Shown here: positions 17,548-37,187 of the stretch, in pieces
How positions within the stretch are numbered: position 1 is the stretch's first letter
Layout: each line of letters starts with the position of its first letter
Origin: Terriglobales bacterium
GTDB lineage: Bacteria; Acidobacteriota; Terriglobia; Terriglobales; Acidobacteriaceae
Direction of reading: 5' to 3'
Assembly: GCA_035543055.1 (NCBI GenBank)
Contig: DATKKJ010000058.1
Location: 1 to 48,753 of the forward strand
Length of the DNA stretch: 48,753 bases
Notes under the pieces: model-generated
Seen by the model: the letters and a program-made list of their open reading frames with translations, nothing else
The model's database searches: none
Told to the model about the DNA's origin: nothing
Program-made: the position numbers and the translations under genes

Positions 17548-19680
17548 CTAGTTCTTCGCCAACAGTTCCTCCACTTTCACCTGACCGCCCTTCTCCAACG
17601 AGATCACTCGCTTCGCGGTGCGGTATCCATCCATCCTCACCTCGATCTCGTAGTTGCCGGGATTGAGCAGGAACGTGACCGGGGCCGGCTTGGGCACGGC
17701 TTGCCCGTTCACCGTCACGGCGGCGCCCTTGGGATTGGTCCTCACCTCCACCATACCCATCTCCCGGTCATTGCTGCCAAAGATCTTCTTGAACTTTCCG
17801 ACCGTTTTGACCTCCGTCGTGCTGCCGGCGGTCATCAGTTCCGGCGAGTACTTGAACTCCTGCCCGCGGGCCAGCGTGGGCATCGCCGACTGCGGCAGGT
17901 AGCCTTCCTTGCGGACAGTGATGTTGTGCTGACCTTCGCTGAGCACCAGCTTGGCCGGCGTCAGCCCGCTCTCTTTGCCATCCACTAGGATCGTGGCTCC
18001 CGCCGGCTGGCTGGCCACCGTCACGAACGCGCCGCGCGGCTGCAAGGAAGCGGCCACAAGCGCCTTGCCGCCTGCTGCCACATCGACCTTGCGCGACTCG
18101 CTCACGTACCCAGGCTTGCTGAAGATGACAGTGTGGCTGCCCGCGGGGACCCCAGTCTTGGAGAGCGGTCCAGGCTCGGATGCTCCGTCGTCGATCTGCA
18201 CCAGCGTCCCCGCCGGCTCAACCGAGATCACCAGTTCGCCCGTCGCCGGCGCAGCCGGCAGGGACGGGGCGGGAGCTGCGCCCACCGTTCTCCGTTTTGC
18301 CGGTGTTGCCGGATTCGTCCGTGCCGGGCTGGGCTCGGCCGGCGTAGTGCTCAGAACGGTCTCTTCTTTCGGAGACGTTGGTTCCTTGGTGGCCGCGGTT
18401 CCCGGTCCAGCGTTCCGGTCTCGCGTGTTCCACAGCGCGATCAGCATCACGACGAGCAAGATCGCGGCAAAGCCCGCCAGCAGCATCGCCGGCTTCTTTC
18501 CAGGCGCTGCGGGCGCCTTGATGGGCGCAGGCTCCGGCTCTGCCGGCACTTCTTGCGACTTTGGGGCCGGCTTGATCCAGACTTTTTCGCTGGGCGGCCC
18601 AAGAGGAACTGGCGCTGCCACCGGCCTTGGCATGATCACCCGCGAGGGTACCGACTCCACCGCAGGCGCTGCCATCGGCTTCGGCGTGATCACCGGCTTG
18701 CCCGATACGCCATACGCGGACACCCTTGCCGGTTTCGGCGTTGGGGCCGATGGGGGTTCGGCTTTGGCCGCCGGCTGCTTCGTCCCCAGGCTCTGGAACC
18801 CCTCCAGTTCACGGATCAGGTCCGCCGCCCTCTGGTAGCGGTCGTTCGGGTCTTTGGCCAGGGCCTTGGCCAGCACCGCGCTCAGGCCCGGGTGGATCAT
18901 GGTGCTCGATTCGTGGGCCGGAGGTGCAAAGCCGTTGAGGATGTTCAGCGCGATCTGCTCCCGCGAACTGCCGCTGAACGCTTTCTTGCCGGTCAGGACC
19001 TCATACAGGATGCAGGCCGCGCTGAAAAGGTCGGCGTGCGCGTCCGGGGGCTGCCCACGCAGCAGTTCCGGCGGCAGGTAGGGCAGGTAGGCGACGTCCT
19101 CCCGCGCGTCGCTGGCTACCAGGCTGTGCGCGAGCCCGAAATCCAGGATCTTCAGCGTGCCGTCGTCTTCGAAGATCAGGTTCCAGGGCACCAGGTTCCC
19201 GTGAAAGATCTTGCGGGCGTGCGCGTGCTCCAGACCGGCGCAGAGCTGGCGCGCTATATCGAGGAACTCGGAGGTGCTGAACTTCTCCCCGTTGCCCAGG
19301 CGCTGGAGCAGCGTCGTCCCGGGAATGTACTCCAGCGTCAGGTAGAACAGCTCCTGCAACTCGCCGCCGCCGACCAGGCTGGCTATGTTAGGACTGTTCA
19401 GCCCGCCGGCTGCCTTCGCCGCCTCTCGCAGGCGGAGGCGGGCGACATCCGGGTCGGCGCTGAAGCGAGACATGTGGACGATGCGCATCGCCACCTTGCA
19501 TTGATTCTGCGTGTCGGTGGCCTTGTACACCGCGCCCATGCGGCCGCGCCCGAGCTCCTGCCCCAGCGCAAAGCGGCCGATGCGCGAAGGAGTTGGATTG
19601 ACTGCGACACCCTGAACCAGATCCGCTGTCGACATAACGGTCCTCGATTTGTTAGGGGGGAGGGCCTTGGCCACGAGCAT
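17548..19680 (-). CDS. Ser/Thr kinase-like (probable pseudokinase) membrane protein with three PEGA domains
   Basis: The 710-residue product has a cytosolic kinase-like domain (about 33-295), a Pro/Ala-rich linker, one membrane segment (about 398-417) and an extracytoplasmic part with three PEGA repeats (about 480-710, e.g. VISVEPAGTLVQIDD, VASQPAGATILVDGKESG, VRTNPKGAAVTVNGQ). The glycine loop GRGRMG (44-49) and DFG (180-182) are intact. The VAIK lysine is Arg66 (VAMRIV) and the HRD aspartate is Asn162 (HGNLVPWN). This suggests little or no phosphotransfer and a scaffold or sensing role. A start at 19635 (MSTADLVQG, after GAGGACC) is equally possible. Confidence 0.92.
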   Translation of the reverse strand: MLVAKALPPNKSRTVMSTADLVQGVAVNPTPSRIGRFALGQELGRGRMGAVYKATDTQNQCKVAMRIVHMSRFSADPDVARLRLREAAKAAGGLNSPNIASLVGGGELQELFYLTLEYIPGTTLLQRLGNGEKFSTSEFLDIARQLCAGLEHAHARKIFHGNLVPWNLIFEDDGTLKILDFGLAHSLVASDAREDVAYLPYLPPELLRGQPPDAHADLFSAACILYEVLTGKKAFSGSSREQIALNILNGFAPPAHESSTMIHPGLSAVLAKALAKDPNDRYQRAADLIRELEGFQSLGTKQPAAKAEPPSAPTPKPARVSAYGVSGKPVITPKPMAAPAVESVPSRVIMPRPVAAPVPLGPPSEKVWIKPAPKSQEVPAEPEPAPIKAPAAPGKKPAMLLAGFAAILLVVMLIALWNTRDRNAGPGTAATKEPTSPKEETVLSTTPAEPSPARTNPATPAKRRTVGAAPAPSLPAAPATGELVISVEPAGTLVQIDDGASEPGPLSKTGVPAGSHTVIFSKPGYVSESRKVDVAAGGKALVAASLQPRGAFVTVASQPAGATILVDGKESGLTPAKLVLSEGQHNITVRKEGYLPQSAMPTLARGQEFKYSPELMTAGSTTEVKTVGKFKKIFGSNDREMGMVEVRTNPKGAAVTVNGQAVPKPAPVTFLLNPGNYEIEVRMDGYRTAKRVISLEKGGQVKVEELLAKN

Positions 19681-31817: not shown

Positions 31818-33200
31818 CTAGGTGGGGTTCCGCGGACCCCGGTCCTGGAGGATCTGGAGCAGCAGCAACCAACGCCGCAGATTACTGGTCACGAGGAAGT
31901 TCTCCTTCACATGTTCGCGGCCGTTCTTTCCCAGCTGCCGGGCGATCTCGGGATGGGTGAGCAAGTAGCGGATCTGGTAGGCGCACCCCTCCACAGAATG
32001 GACCAGGGCGCCGGTGAGGTTGTGGATCACCTGGTTGGGGATGCCGCCCACCGCGCCGGCGATGGTGGGTTTGCCCTTCCATAGCGCTTCCGTGACGGTG
32101 AGGCCGAAACCCTCCCGAAGGGACTTCTGCACGATCAGTGTGGAGGCACGCTGCAGAGCATTGATTTCCAGCGCGCACCAGGGCGGCAAGTCGAGCACCA
32201 CGATGTCGGGATCGCCGTTCGCCGCGGCCCTCACTTCCTGGAGGACGGCGGCGCCTTCGGGATCGTCGGCTGCGCCGCCCCCGGCCAGCACAAGTTGAAA
32301 GTCAACGTACTTCCTGGCCAGCCGGTAGGCTTGGACCACTCCCACCGGGTCCTTGAGCCGGTCGAAGCGTGAAACCTGGGTCACGATCGGCCGGGAGCGG
32401 TCGATGCCGCATTCGTCACAGATCTGCTGGACGAAGCTCTCTTCCAGCTCCTTGTTCTTCTCCGAAAGCGGATCGATGCAGGGGTAGAAGAGGTACTGCG
32501 GGATGGCCAGCTGGCGCGCAAACGACTGGGACGAGAAGATGGCAGCGTCGTACTGCTCGATCATCGGCCGGAGGAATCCCCACACTTCGGGATGAGGGTT
32601 GGAGAGGTCGATGTGGCAACGCCAGATCCAGTGCGCATGCGAGCTCGGTCGGGCGCGCACCAGGGCCGCGGGCTGGGGGTCGTGGATCACCACGAAGTCC
32701 TCCTCGAACTGCATGCGCTCCCGGTTCTGTTCGTTGCTCAGGAGGAAGATCTCACGCGCTTCCCGGGTGAGCTGGTATTCACCGCCATGCAGTGCGTTGT
32801 GAAACCCCTTGGTGATCTCGAAGAAGTCATTGCCGCCGGTGATGACCTCCCAGCGGGTGGCGATCTCCAGTTCTTGCAACAGCGGGACCAGGTGATGGAG
32901 CATCTCGGCGACCCCTCCGCCGACCGCCGTGGAGTTGACCATCTTGACGGTCTTCCCGCGGAGCCCGCCGGCAAGGAATCGCAATTCGTCCAGGACTGGC
33001 TTGCCGGTGACCGGCCCGTAGTCATCCAGGCGCGGCGCTGGGGTCGGAAGCGGCGGGACGGGGCAGATGCGGGGGGTCTTGCGGCGCTCCGGCTGGGGGG
33101 CAGGCAGGCTCGCTGGAGCCGCTCCCCCCGGCGTGTTCTGACTGCCGGAAGGGGAGGGCTCGAATGGCCTCACCCTATCGCGATTGCGTTCTATGGTCAT
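31818..33200 (-). CDS. treT: GT4 glycosyltransferase, trehalose synthase TreT-like
   Basis: TreT joins NDP-glucose and glucose to make trehalose in one reversible step. After a Pro-rich N-terminal stretch (1-58) the GT-B fold includes NSTAVGGGVAEML (89-101) and the acceptor-side VIHDPQPAAL, IWRCHIDLSNPHPEVW region. The donor-side motifs are VSRFDRLKDP (276-285) and the E-x7-E block EGFGLTVTE (363-371). Length is 460. The family match plus the neighbouring trehalose genes supports the call. Another NDP-sugar transferase activity is possible. It lies 21 bases downstream of the DUF5752 gene. Confidence 0.82.
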   Translation of the reverse strand: MTIERNRDRVRPFEPSPSGSQNTPGGAAPASLPAPQPERRKTPRICPVPPLPTPAPRLDDYGPVTGKPVLDELRFLAGGLRGKTVKMVNSTAVGGGVAEMLHHLVPLLQELEIATRWEVITGGNDFFEITKGFHNALHGGEYQLTREAREIFLLSNEQNRERMQFEEDFVVIHDPQPAALVRARPSSHAHWIWRCHIDLSNPHPEVWGFLRPMIEQYDAAIFSSQSFARQLAIPQYLFYPCIDPLSEKNKELEESFVQQICDECGIDRSRPIVTQVSRFDRLKDPVGVVQAYRLARKYVDFQLVLAGGGAADDPEGAAVLQEVRAAANGDPDIVVLDLPPWCALEINALQRASTLIVQKSLREGFGLTVTEALWKGKPTIAGAVGGIPNQVIHNLTGALVHSVEGCAYQIRYLLTHPEIARQLGKNGREHVKENFLVTSNLRRWLLLLQILQDRGPRNPT

Positions 33201-33221: not shown

Positions 33222-33914
33222 TCATGCCAGCGCCCGCTCCACCACGCGGATGATCTGCCGGCGCACGTCTTCCAGTGTCGCCGTGTAGATGTCGACGCGG
33301 TTGAGACGCCGGGCGGCGTCGGGCAGGCCCAGCTCGTCCTGCAGCCAGACGGAAAAGTCGTTGGAGATGAGCTTCAGGCGCAGCCGCGCCTCGATGAAGT
33401 GATGATGGATGGAGTGCACGCTGACCCGCGCCAGAGCGTCGGCGAATTCGACCAGGTTGCGGGCTACGAACGGCGTGGGCAGCACCACGCTCTCGGCGGC
33501 GCAGAAGTAGAAGGGTTCCGCCACCGGCTTCTGCAAAGAGCGCGGATGCCGCCGGGTGAAGTCCTCCACGATCGCGACAATGCGCGCCCGCAGGTCGGCC
33601 AGCGAGGTGAACTCGCGCACATCCACCCCGGCCAGCCGTTCGGCGAGCGCAGGCTCACCGCAGGCCGCCAGGGCCCAGTGCGCAAAATCGTTGGAGAACC
33701 CTTCGGGGATGAAGTGATGCTCTTCCAGGGTGCGAAAGGTGTGCTGGAAGATGGAGTCGTCGGGGCAGGAGCGTAGTGCCTCCAGCAACTCTCCGAGGTT
33801 CCTCGCCACCTCCCGCCCGATGCGGAGCAGGTGGACCGAGGAGTTGAAATAGAAGGGCCGGCGGGCGTCGCCCGGGTGTCCGGAGGGCCTGGGGTTGGGT
33901 AGCGCAGCGCTCAA
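33222..33914 (-). CDS. DUF5752 family protein with internal duplication
   Basis: A 230-residue protein of unknown function made of two similar halves. Each begins PFYF (20-23 and 134-137). Each then has a His-rich helix and SNDF..W (FSNDFAHW, ISNDFSVW), and ends with an AGVDVREFTSLADLRARI / NRVDIYTATLEDVRRQI pair. I place the start at TTG 33914. It overlaps the trehalose-phosphatase stop (TTGA) and has AGGAGG five bases upstream. A longer frame to 34007 would run into the phosphatase gene. Position between otsB and treT suggests a role in trehalose metabolism. Confidence 0.82.
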   Translation of the reverse strand: MSAALPNPRPSGHPGDARRPFYFNSSVHLLRIGREVARNLGELLEALRSCPDDSIFQHTFRTLEEHHFIPEGFSNDFAHWALAACGEPALAERLAGVDVREFTSLADLRARIVAIVEDFTRRHPRSLQKPVAEPFYFCAAESVVLPTPFVARNLVEFADALARVSVHSIHHHFIEARLRLKLISNDFSVWLQDELGLPDAARRLNRVDIYTATLEDVRRQIIRVVERALA

Positions 33915-34705
33915 CGGCCCCTCCTGCGCGCCCGCAGCCACTGGGAGAGGAAATCCAGCAGTTCGGCGGGAGGCCGGATCCAGAGATGGGCGGCAGTGCT
34001 TCGCCATTCCGGACGGACCAGCACCCCAAATCCCCCCGGCCCCAGCGCAGAGAAGGCTTCCTCATCGGTCTGGTCGTCGCCCAGGTAGGCGATCACCGCC
34101 TCTTTCCCCATTTCCGCCCGGATGGTGTGGACGGCGTCGGTCTTGTTCCTGTCGGTCACTCGGAGTTCAAGGCCACCGTCGAACTCCAGCAAACCGAGGT
34201 TAAAACGGAATGCGAGCGGCATCCACAGCAACAGGACCTTGCTCTTCAACTCAGCCGACTCCGCCTCCGGCAGGCCCCGCCAATGCAGCGCGACGCTTCC
34301 CGGTTTGACCTCCGCCCGGTCTCGTAGCCCGAGCTGCTTCAGCCACGCGGACGCCGCGGTCAGCCCCTGCTGCGCCTCCGAGTCCACCACCGTCATCTCG
34401 AAGCTGCCGTCCGTGCGCAGCCTTTGCAGGCCGTAGGCCCCCCAGACCTCGGGATAGGGATAGACACCCAGCAACCGCACCACTTCTCCGGCGGGGCGGC
34501 CGGTGACCATGACCACCCGCGTGGAGCCCTCGCGCATGATTTCCTGGAGCAACTGGGCCACGCCCGGGTAAGGCATGGCCCGATCACGCTCCACGTTGAA
34601 GGGTGCCAAGGTCCCGTCGTAATCGAGCAGGAGAGCGGCCGAGCGCGCACCCGCCAACTGCGCCAAGAATTGTTCGCGGTCCACGATGTCAGTGGTGTCC
34701 GGCAA
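33911..34705 (-). CDS. otsB: Trehalose-6-phosphate phosphatase
   Basis: OtsB removes phosphate from trehalose-6-phosphate. The HAD nucleophile motif is LLLDYDGTLAPF (DYDGT at 28-32), motif II is VVMVTGRPAGEV, and motif III/IV is IAYLGDDQTDEEAFSALG. The residues DRNKTDAVHTI fit the cap-proximal region. The 264-residue length is normal. The end overlaps the DUF5752 start by four bases and supplies its Shine-Dalgarno. It is 35 bases downstream of the synthase gene. The pair with the GT20 gene is strong support. Confidence 0.95.
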   Translation of the reverse strand: MPDTTDIVDREQFLAQLAGARSAALLLDYDGTLAPFNVERDRAMPYPGVAQLLQEIMREGSTRVVMVTGRPAGEVVRLLGVYPYPEVWGAYGLQRLRTDGSFEMTVVDSEAQQGLTAASAWLKQLGLRDRAEVKPGSVALHWRGLPEAESAELKSKVLLLWMPLAFRFNLGLLEFDGGLELRVTDRNKTDAVHTIRAEMGKEAVIAYLGDDQTDEEAFSALGPGGFGVLVRPEWRSTAAHLWIRPPAELLDFLSQWLRARRRGR

Positions 34706-34740: not shown

Positions 34741-37026
34741 TCAGGCCACGGATGCGCGTTCGCCGGCGGGAGATTCAAGCCCCTCCGGCATGTCCAGGCG
34801 CACCCCGCAGAGGTCCGCCATCAGCGTACCGGCCCACCGGTACACGTTCTGGTCCTTGATGATGCGGCGCATGTGCCGCATGCGTGTCCTCCGCTCGGCC
34901 GGGTCCATTTCCAGCGCCGAGTAGATGGCCTGGGCCATCTGGTCGATGTCATAGGGATTCACCAGGAGCGCGTCGCGCAGCTCGTGGGCGGCGCCGGTGA
35001 AGCGACTCAGAACGAGCATCCCTTGTTCATCGTGGCGCTCGGCCAGGAACTCCTTGGCCACCAGATTCATGCCATCGTGCAGCGAGGTGACCATGCACAC
35101 GTCCGCAGCGCGATAGAACCGCTGCAACTCCTGATGACTGTGTTGGCGTTTGAGGAAGACGATAGGTTTCCAGTTCTCTGTTTGGAAGCGCCAGCTGATC
35201 CGTTCGGCCTCGGCTTCCACCTCCGCGTACAGGTCGTGGTAGCGCTTGATGTGGGTGCGGCTGGGCGCCCCGACCTGCACGAAGGTGAACTTGTTCCGGT
35301 ACTCGGGGTACTTCTCGAGGAAGCGCTCGACCGCGAGCAGGCGCTCCAGGATGCCCTTGGTATAGTCCACGCGGTCCACACCCAGGCCGACGTAGAGCGC
35401 GTCCACGCCCAGGTCCTTGAGCAGGGCGTTGCGCTCCGTCGCGGACAAGTCCGGCGCAGACCCCGGGCGCGGGGGCTCCTGGAACTCCACGCTGATGGGA
35501 AACGGGCGGACCAGGGTCACGTGCCCCTGGCGCTTGACCGAAAAGTGTTCCCAGTCGACCCGCGACTCCAGCGCCCGGTCCACCGTCTGCATGAAATGGT
35601 TGCAGTGGGATTGGATGTGGAAGCCCACGAGGTCGGCCGCCAGCAGGCCATCCAGCAACTCCCGCTGCACCGGGCAGATGCCGAAGACCTCCGGGTTCGG
35701 CCAGGGGATATGCCAGAAGATCGCCACCCGCGCCTCAGGACGCTTTTCCTTCACGTAGCGCGGCAGCAGGGCGAAGTGATAGTCCTGGGCCAGGAGCACC
35801 GGCGTTTCCGTGCCCGCCATCTCTTGCAGCACCGCATCGGCGAACCGGCGGTTCACCCGCTGGTAGTGCTCCCAGTCAGCGCTGCGGAAGGTGGGACGCG
35901 TGTGCGCGATGTGGCACAGGGGCCACAACCCCTCGTTCGCGAAGCCATAGTAGTAGCCTTCCTCTTCTTCTTTGCTCAGCCAGACGCGGCGCAGGGTGTA
36001 GCGGGGATCGTCCGGCGGGACGCGCAGCCGGTCGTGTCCGTCCACGGTCTCCTGGTCGGCATCGCCGGAGCCATGCGCAAGCCAGGTGCCGTCGCAGGTG
36101 CGAAGCACCGGCTCCAGCGCCGTGACCAGGCCACTGGCCGGTACGATCATCTCCACCGCCTTCCCCTTGCGCAGGTGCATGTAAGGCTCGCGGTTGGAGA
36201 CCACGAACAAGCGGCTGCCCCCCAGCTTGCTGCGCACGTGGACGGCGAGGCGTTCCGCGGTCCACAACGACTCGCCTGCGTCGCGCAGCCGGGCCTCGGT
36301 CTCGGCCGCCGACCGGGCCTGCTTCAGGCTCTCCGCAAACGTGGCTACCTCGCTCGCCAGGGGGCGGAAGAAGTCCCAGTCGGGAAAATTGTGACGCGCC
36401 GATGTCCGGTTGGTGCGCAGGGCCTTCATCCATTGGGCGACGCTGGCGATCGGGCCGGCGATACTCCAGCGCACGATCAACAGAGTGATGAGTGCGATGG
36501 CCAGCGTCTGCACCAGGACATGCAGGAACGTCGTGCGCCACAGGCCTTGCAGCTGGGCATTGATGTAAGTGGCATCGTGCACGATGGCCAGGCCGCCGAT
36601 CGCGGTCTCATTACCGTGGAGCGGCAGGGCGTAGATGTGCATCAGTACCTCGTCGATGCGCACAAACCTGCTCTGGGCGTGATTGCTGGCGATGGCGCTT
36701 CGGACTGCTTCCGGCTCGACGGCGATCCTCTCGGCCAGTTTCGGGGTCATGGCGAGCGCGACGCCCTCGCTGTCATAGACGGCGATCCCGGCCAGGCGTT
36801 CGCGGTTGCCGAAGCGAGTCACGATCCGTTGCAACTCGGTGCGCGAACCTCTCGCCGCCAGAGGCTCGACGGTTTCCAGCAGGCTGTCTCCCAGGACTTC
36901 GGCCCGCTTCTGCAATTCATTCCTCCGGCTCTGTTTTTCGGAATGAACCTCATACAAGGCGAAGATCGTCGATACCAGGGAAATGCCCAGGACAAGGGAG
37001 ACGATCAGTCGCAGGCTTAAGCGCAT
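34741..37026 (-). CDS. Membrane sensor-HAMP-trehalose-6-phosphate synthase (GT20) fusion
   Basis: The 761-residue protein has membrane segments at about 7-27 and 164-187 flanking a ~135-residue periplasmic Cache-like sensor (e.g. [18 protein letters not shown]). A HAMP-like segment (about 188-240, [13 protein letters not shown]) and a coiled linker follow, then a full GT20 domain (272-745). Candidate OtsA active-site equivalents are present: Arg279 (SNRE), Asp415 (QDYH), His439 ([13 protein letters not shown]), Arg552 and Lys557 (VDRVDYTKG), and Asp651 ([11 protein letters not shown]). Ordinary OtsA is ~470 residues and soluble. A related GT20 product such as glucosylglycerol-phosphate cannot be excluded. 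Confidence 0.93.
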
Positions 37027-37187
37027 GTTCCGCTGTACTCCCTTCTGTCTTTGCTTTCCGGTGGCCGGGTACGAAGGGCGCGTTGGAGACTATCTGCGGC
37101 GCTGACTGCACGAAGCTGAACGGGCTGGTCCCAGCAGGGCTCTGGCGTACTGACAGCCAGGACCCGCCTGTCCGCCTCGCGCAGTCC

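Follow-up and report, generated by a model that had tools for sequence, protein, structure and literature searches.

Known sensor-enzyme systems and directly controlled GT20 synthases

HAMP receptors drive kinases, cyclases and chemoreceptors, and in membrane adenylate cyclases and DgcN-type diguanylate cyclases a periplasmic sensor and a HAMP domain directly control the enzyme. The protein described here resembles these cyclases in carrying a sensor and HAMP on an enzyme; however, the cyclases make second messengers, whereas the fusion would make an osmolyte precursor. Further related systems are the histidine kinases WalK/YycG, KinD, CitA and DcuS, which share with the fusion the TM-Cache-TM-HAMP topology, the Cache fold, the position of the HAMP and the signalling helix, but whose output is a DHp/ATPase kinase core, as opposed to a biosynthetic glycosyltransferase preceded by a degenerate HAMP.

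Direct control of a GT20 synthase has been described in two other settings. In Thermoproteus tenax, a partner GT4 glycosyltransferase is required for the trehalose-6-phosphate synthase (TPS) activity of the GT20 protein TPSP, and the trehalose operon also holds a mechanosensitive channel (PMC3634074). In Synechocystis, the GT20-type osmolyte synthase GgpS is activated directly by salt, where ions release GgpS from nucleic acid (PMC6753628). Together, these systems provide a precedent for direct control of synthase activity (PMC3634074; PMC6753628). The T. tenax TPSP-GT-MSC operon is like the locus described here in its GT20 synthase, phosphatase and GT4; its mechanosensitive channel has a counterpart near one homologue of the fusion (L003), and its activity is controlled at the protein level, as is proposed for the fusion. 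However, its TPS is fused to the phosphatase (TPP) rather than to a sensor and is activated by the partner GT4. GgpS parallels the proposed action of the fusion in being activated directly by salt without a relay, while differing in that it is soluble and controlled by ions and nucleic acid.

A sensor-GT20 fusion gene in a Terriglobales bacterium

The window (the whole stretch of 48,753 nucleotides that was analysed) carries at complement(34741..37026) a single gene of 761 residues, called from the open reading frame, its homologues and an AlphaFold2 model, whose product is laid out from N to C terminus as a first membrane helix (TM1), a periplasmic single-Cache domain, a second membrane helix (TM2), a degenerate HAMP, a signalling helix and a complete GT20 synthase. 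The original prediction that one open frame joins two membrane segments, a Cache-like domain, a HAMP-like segment and a GT20 synthase is borne out by this gene and by its colinear homologues. The gene begins with ATG, 11 nt after a Shine-Dalgarno-like AAGGGAG (37038..37044, minus strand) that would serve as its ribosome-binding site, and its codon-position GC is 67/43/85%. An 805-residue open reading frame on the opposite strand was dismissed, as it mirrors the codon-position GC of the fusion gene. No tRNA was found in the window, and there was no Rfam match.

By hydropathy, the full protein has two membrane segments and no more: TM1 at residues 7-25 (36952..37008, minus strand; hydropathy 2.36), which lies within a modelled helix of residues 2-59, and TM2 at residues 162-187 (36466..36543, minus strand), whose span is fixed in homologues. 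These agree with the segments expected beforehand at residues 7-27 and 164-187, and in 45 of 51 homologues, hydropathy likewise gives two segments for the N-terminal half. Between them lies the periplasmic single-Cache domain (residues 28-160; 36547..36945, minus strand), assigned by structure alignment and profile match. In the AlphaFold2 model, which was built on the 51-sequence alignment and has a mean pLDDT of 83, the helix of residues 2-59 is followed by an alpha/beta domain (60-152), helices at 153-205, 218-253 and 257-268 and then the GT-B enzyme, and modelling the N-terminal half alone gave the same fold. The long N-terminal helix and PAS-like beta-sheet that this model places between the two membrane helices are those of a Cache domain.

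Comparison with known structures points the same way. VIA-align superposes the model on WalK 4ywz with Z 14.7 (2.6 A over 136 residues), on KinD and CitA entries with Z 13.7-14.6, on DcuS 3by8 with Z 12.6 and on an integrative full-length WalK model with Z 16.1 over 265 residues. A profile of the sensor module matches the WalK/YycG sensor chains 5is1, 4ywz and 7dud (E 1e-6 to 2e-5), the NCBIfam WalK model covers residues 3-246 (E 1e-6), and the NCBIfam DgcN model weakly touches residues 38-210. Pfam Cache models gave no match above threshold on the window protein alone, and Pfam sCache_3_2 is present in 12 of the 51 homologues (best E 3.9e-7). The Cache-like sensor that had been proposed thus stands on its fold, with matches to WalK, KinD, CitA and DcuS, and not on a Pfam match in the window protein itself. 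Among the large segments, the Cache core varies most across the 51 homologues (mean entropy 2.27 bits), and it has no strongly conserved polar pocket, which makes one common ligand unlikely.

A degenerate HAMP shared with sensor kinases

The segment following TM2 (residues 188-236; 36319..36465, minus strand) is assigned as a degenerate HAMP by alignment to the Pfam-detected HAMPs of four histidine kinases (L094-L097). It consists of two helices, AS1 (188-205) and AS2 (218-236), joined by a connector (206-217), with a nearly invariant P192 in AS1 and an invariant E226 in AS2 among homologues, and it is homologous to true HAMPs. Pfam HAMP PF00672 gave no match at its cut-off on the window protein and matches only 4 of the 51 homologues (best E 0.0048). 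Accordingly, the HAMP-like segment named in the original prediction holds up through the kinase HAMPs that align to residues 187-236, but not through the Pfam profile, which stays below threshold.

When 199 genomes of the phylum were scanned with the sensor-module profile, histidine-kinase frames of 484-540 residues were matched at E 1e-22 to 1e-31, which carry HAMP, HisKA and HATPase domains and whose HAMPs are detected by Pfam at E 2e-9 to 5e-14. BLASTP aligns the window protein to these kinases at E 2e-14 (L095 and L096) and 9e-14 (L094), and hhalign aligns the sensor half to the kinase sensors with a probability of 99.8% over 261 columns. Taken together, the BLASTP, hhalign and profile matches, the fold and the HAMP alignment indicate that sensor-kinase receptors are either the ancestors of the module or its relatives by common descent. 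In the fusion, a GT20 enzyme stands where these receptors have their kinase core. Among phages, no relative of the sensor was found.

Proposed coupling of the sensor to the enzyme

The HAMP is followed by a signalling helix (S-helix; residues 237-253; 36268..36318, minus strand) of fixed length, in which A237, A241, A245 and R248 are invariant and whose mean entropy of 1.10 bits is the lowest in the N-terminal half. A further helix containing WTAERL (the W-helix; residues 254-268; 36223..36267, minus strand) links the sensor to the enzyme; as several relatives that are stand-alone or TM-anchored share the W-containing sequence, it is probably part of the enzyme. Distances along this path are strikingly constant. 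The TM2-AS1 distances (153-204) are unchanged across the 51 homologues, the span of residues 153-192 being 40 in every one; AS2 and the S-helix (P222-W255) show no length change in 51 of 51; and the stretch 255-279 differs in length in just one. By contrast, homologues differ in the length of the connector of the HAMP (17-22) and of the Cache domain (93-99). Fixed lengths of TM2-AS1 and AS2/S-helix next to a variable Cache domain and connector form the pattern of a transmission rod, not of a loose tether, and these alignments support the view that HAMP and enzyme are linked rigidly and at a fixed distance. An actual signal would then pass through TM2, HAMP and S-helix to the enzyme.

The reading that we favour, with a probability of roughly 60%, is that of a receptor-enzyme, in which a cue at the Cache domain shifts the TM2-HAMP-S-helix rod within a dimer and alters GT20 activity. 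In such a protein, the two helices seen by hydropathy and in the model would anchor it in the membrane, and it would form a dimer by analogy with Cache/HAMP receptors and with dimeric or tetrameric OtsA. The single Cache domain, with its modelled fold, would sense a periplasmic ligand or physical cue, and its state would pass through TM2, the degenerate HAMP and the alanine-rich S-helix of fixed length to the GT20 domain, where it would favour or disfavour the catalytically closed form. The enzyme would convert UDP- or ADP-glucose and glucose-6-phosphate to trehalose-6-phosphate at the membrane, as expected from its family and residues, and the phosphatase encoded next to it would go on to produce trehalose. 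Among possible cues, osmotic or desiccation stress would be the most natural one, and osmolarity, which had been suggested originally, is plausible by analogy with the ion-activated GgpS (PMC6753628).

The main rival, which is rather unlikely, is a passive tether: the half derived from a sensor would do no more than hold the synthase at the inner membrane and would transmit no signal, an arrangement whose use would be to make trehalose near the envelope or beside partner proteins. A homologue on plasmid pAA02 of Aminobacter aminovorans (L171:4755-6572) consists of one N-terminal TM, the W-helix and a GT20 domain of the same subfamily, sensor-free, and fusions of antiporters to GT20 exist (see below), which suggests that being at the membrane may be useful in itself; the missing Pfam HAMP match and the variable Cache core also fit a simple anchor. 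However, in a passive anchor one would not expect the lengths and residues of TM2-AS1 and AS2/S-helix to be invariant across 51 homologues, nor the S-helix to have a lower entropy than any other N-terminal segment, and the Cache domain has been kept across phyla. These features argue for the receptor-enzyme.

The GT20 enzyme and its product

The catalytic domain (residues 272-739; 34810..36213, minus strand) matches the trehalose-6-phosphate synthase-type family PF00982 at E 2.4e-120, with 402.9 bits against a cut-off of 32.5 and model positions 2-471 of 473 covered, and Foldseek aligns it to Mycobacterium thermoresistibile OtsA 5l3k (E 2e-33). On E. coli OtsA, where the active-site mapping uses a one-residue offset, the equivalents of R9, G22, Y76, W85, D130, H154, R262, K267, R300, D361 and E369 are kept in 51 of 51 homologues (50 of 51 for W85) and correspond to R279, G299, Y359, W368, D415, H439, R552, K557, R590, D651 and E659 of the window protein. 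Most of the mapped residues bind glucose-6-phosphate or UDP-glucose in OtsA (PMC1769515), and mycobacterial OtsA gives equivalent residues, including Ser323/Arg324 (PMC6879718). E. coli W42, near the acceptor site, corresponds to His318; W315 is invariant and H318 stands at the other tryptophan, Trp40 of the literature being mappable to neither with certainty. An apparent loss of the acceptor arginine, in which R300 was matched to Y600, was ruled out, as R300 aligns with the invariant R590 (PMC6879718). Thus the synthase does have its catalytic residues, as had been claimed, with the OtsA substrate-binding equivalents invariant except for the one W-to-H change at His318.

Against the OtsA equivalog model TIGR02400 (cut-off 564.85), the fusion scores 441.2 bits and the second GT20 of the same genome 536.9. 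It also misses the cut-off of 569 of the GgpS model TIGR02398 with 316 bits; since E. coli OtsA (277) scores lower on this model and the second GT20 (355) higher, the fusion shows no special affinity, and an identity as GgpS was rejected. For 90 GT20 domains, most of them sampled from the phylum and few from outside Acidobacteriota, a tree built by a quick method and supported by SH-aLRT values alone puts the fused synthases in a subfamily apart from classical OtsA and TPS-TPP fusions (SH-aLRT 100; 58 versus 32 rows). The signature of this subfamily includes H, Q or A in place of the tryptophan at Q318, a change from R/K to H at Q650, and W438/W442. Owing to this separate subfamily and the missed equivalog cut-offs, the protein is named a GT20 synthase and not a strict OtsA. 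The OtsA of E. coli (1uqt) and M. thermoresistibile (5jij) shares its GT-B fold and substrate-binding residues, but is soluble and sensor-free, and lies outside the subfamily with the W-to-H change at Q318.

As judged from its residues and relatives, the product of the fused synthase is most likely trehalose-6-phosphate. That the same receptor-enzyme instead uses an acceptor other than glucose-6-phosphate, glucosylglycerol-phosphate-like or other, is quite improbable. This would suit a distinct subfamily with its own changes at Q318 and Q650 in the active-site region, which misses all NCBIfam equivalog cut-offs in a genome that also holds a classical-type GT20. On the other hand, the acceptor-phosphate equivalents of R9, Y76, W85 and R300 are conserved, the GgpS score is no higher than for OtsA-like proteins, the neighbouring phosphatase matches trehalose-phosphatase, and in five genomes from different phyla, CP085323 included, the fused protein is the sole GT20 found; these points argue for trehalose-6-phosphate.

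Spread of the fusion

Of 173 relatives found in species-representative genomes, the best 80 were taken as homologous loci, and most of these align from residue 1-3 to about residue 745, a few being cut by contig ends. Among these best 80 of 173, the fusion occurs mostly in Acidobacteriota, and also in Bacteroidota, Ignavibacteriota, Nitrospirota, Elusimicrobiota and Thermodesulfobacteriota. Within the source family, the sensor module is found in 61 of 150 genomes at E<=1e-8, nearly all on frames of 740-850 residues, and one homologue lies on the complete chromosome of Acidobacteriaceae bacterium ZG23-2 (CP085323; L060). A fused frame, an assembly or annotation error or a wrong start codon, with the real enzyme beginning near residue 260, would be in keeping with the stand-alone members of the subfamily and the long antisense reading frame, but is rejected as extremely improbable given colinear, in-frame homologues in many independent assemblies, one a complete chromosome, whose in-frame starts sit near residue 1, the ribosome-binding-site-like sequence at residue 1 and consistent codon-position GC.

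The alignments support the view that the whole fusion is old and has been retained across at least six phyla. What had first been noted as a single fusion is real and belongs to a widespread family. The fused enzymes are strongly clustered in the GT20 tree with stand-alone members on separate branches; the label 'sensor' needs two changes on this quick-method tree, which therefore establishes no single origin of the sensor fusion. In the plasmid collection, GT20 relatives are present, and a near-full-length sensor fusion was not found. The literature searched, whose coverage is partial and by which absence is unprovable, held no relevant description of HAMP-GT20 or antiporter-GT20 proteins, in agreement with the original statement that no characterised example was known. 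The parts are known in kind; the combination appears to be undescribed in that literature.

Sister architectures

Other membrane fusions occur in the same subfamily. In an Acidobacteriota sister clade, a multi-TM N-terminus and GT20 are joined in single open reading frames (L100-L104, L107-L109). Five of these (L100, L102, L104, L107 and L109) match the Pfam Na_H_Exchanger PF00999 at E 4e-18 to 7e-23; in L101, which resembles them in its multi-TM region, Na_H_Exchanger gives no match at the threshold used, and L103 and L108 were outside the Pfam scan. In the sampled phylum, no membrane fusions of GT20 were seen on the classical side of the tree, and TPS-TPP fusions occur only there. Another group of GT20 fusions with two TMs (L099, L105, L150, L152, L162 and L164-L166) has diverged; the alanine pattern is not conserved in its linker, and it may represent a sensor fusion that arose independently or has degenerated. 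The chances are about even that this GT20 subfamily repeatedly became the output domain of membrane sensing or transport proteins, namely of Cache-HAMP receptors in many phyla and of Na+/H+ antiporters in Acidobacteriota, in which an external or ionic cue would gate osmolyte synthesis within one polypeptide, with neither phosphorelay nor transcription.

Neighbouring genes

Three further genes follow on the same (minus) strand. A trehalose-phosphatase gene (33911..34705) with a TTG start, a GGAGG upstream and a DYDGT motif matches PF02358 (E 1.8e-12); a DUF5752 gene (33222..34007; PF19027, E 6.6e-57) has its true start probably inside the open reading frame; and a TreT-like GT4 glycosyltransferase gene (31818..33200) matches PF21269 TreT_GT1 (E 1.9e-56). 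Among the best 80 of 173 loci, many of them incomplete, these neighbours are found in about 40% (TPP 33/80, DUF5752 31/80, TreT 35/80), and they adjoin homologues in other phyla too. In several phyla, the DUF5752 gene again takes the middle position, with the trehalose-phosphatase gene on one side and the TreT-like gene on the other. The second, classical-type GT20 of the source genome (G000:C230, L001) has phosphatase- and TreT-like neighbours of its own, which gives this genome two trehalose loci.

Several other observations were made around these genes. A mechanosensitive-channel-type gene (L003:11543-12247) lies about 3 kb downstream of one sensor-GT20 homologue, echoing the T. tenax operon. 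The pAA02 GT20 gene of A. aminovorans has GT4 and amylo-alpha-1,6-glucosidase genes as neighbours. Elsewhere in the window, positions 17548-19680 encode a Ser/Thr protein kinase that ends in a PEGA domain and may be an envelope signalling protein.

Significance

Cells with this fusion may switch the synthesis of a protective sugar directly from outside. If true, an anabolic enzyme linked to a HAMP would be the shortest possible osmo-response circuit, and would offer a direct test of HAMP signals on an unrelated fold. The sister antiporter-synthase fusions would physically join ion transport and osmolyte synthesis. The receptor-enzyme idea can be tested in strain ZG23-2 (CP085323), where no GT20 besides the fused gene was found, and the fusion is a candidate explanation for the stress tolerance of soil Acidobacteriota.
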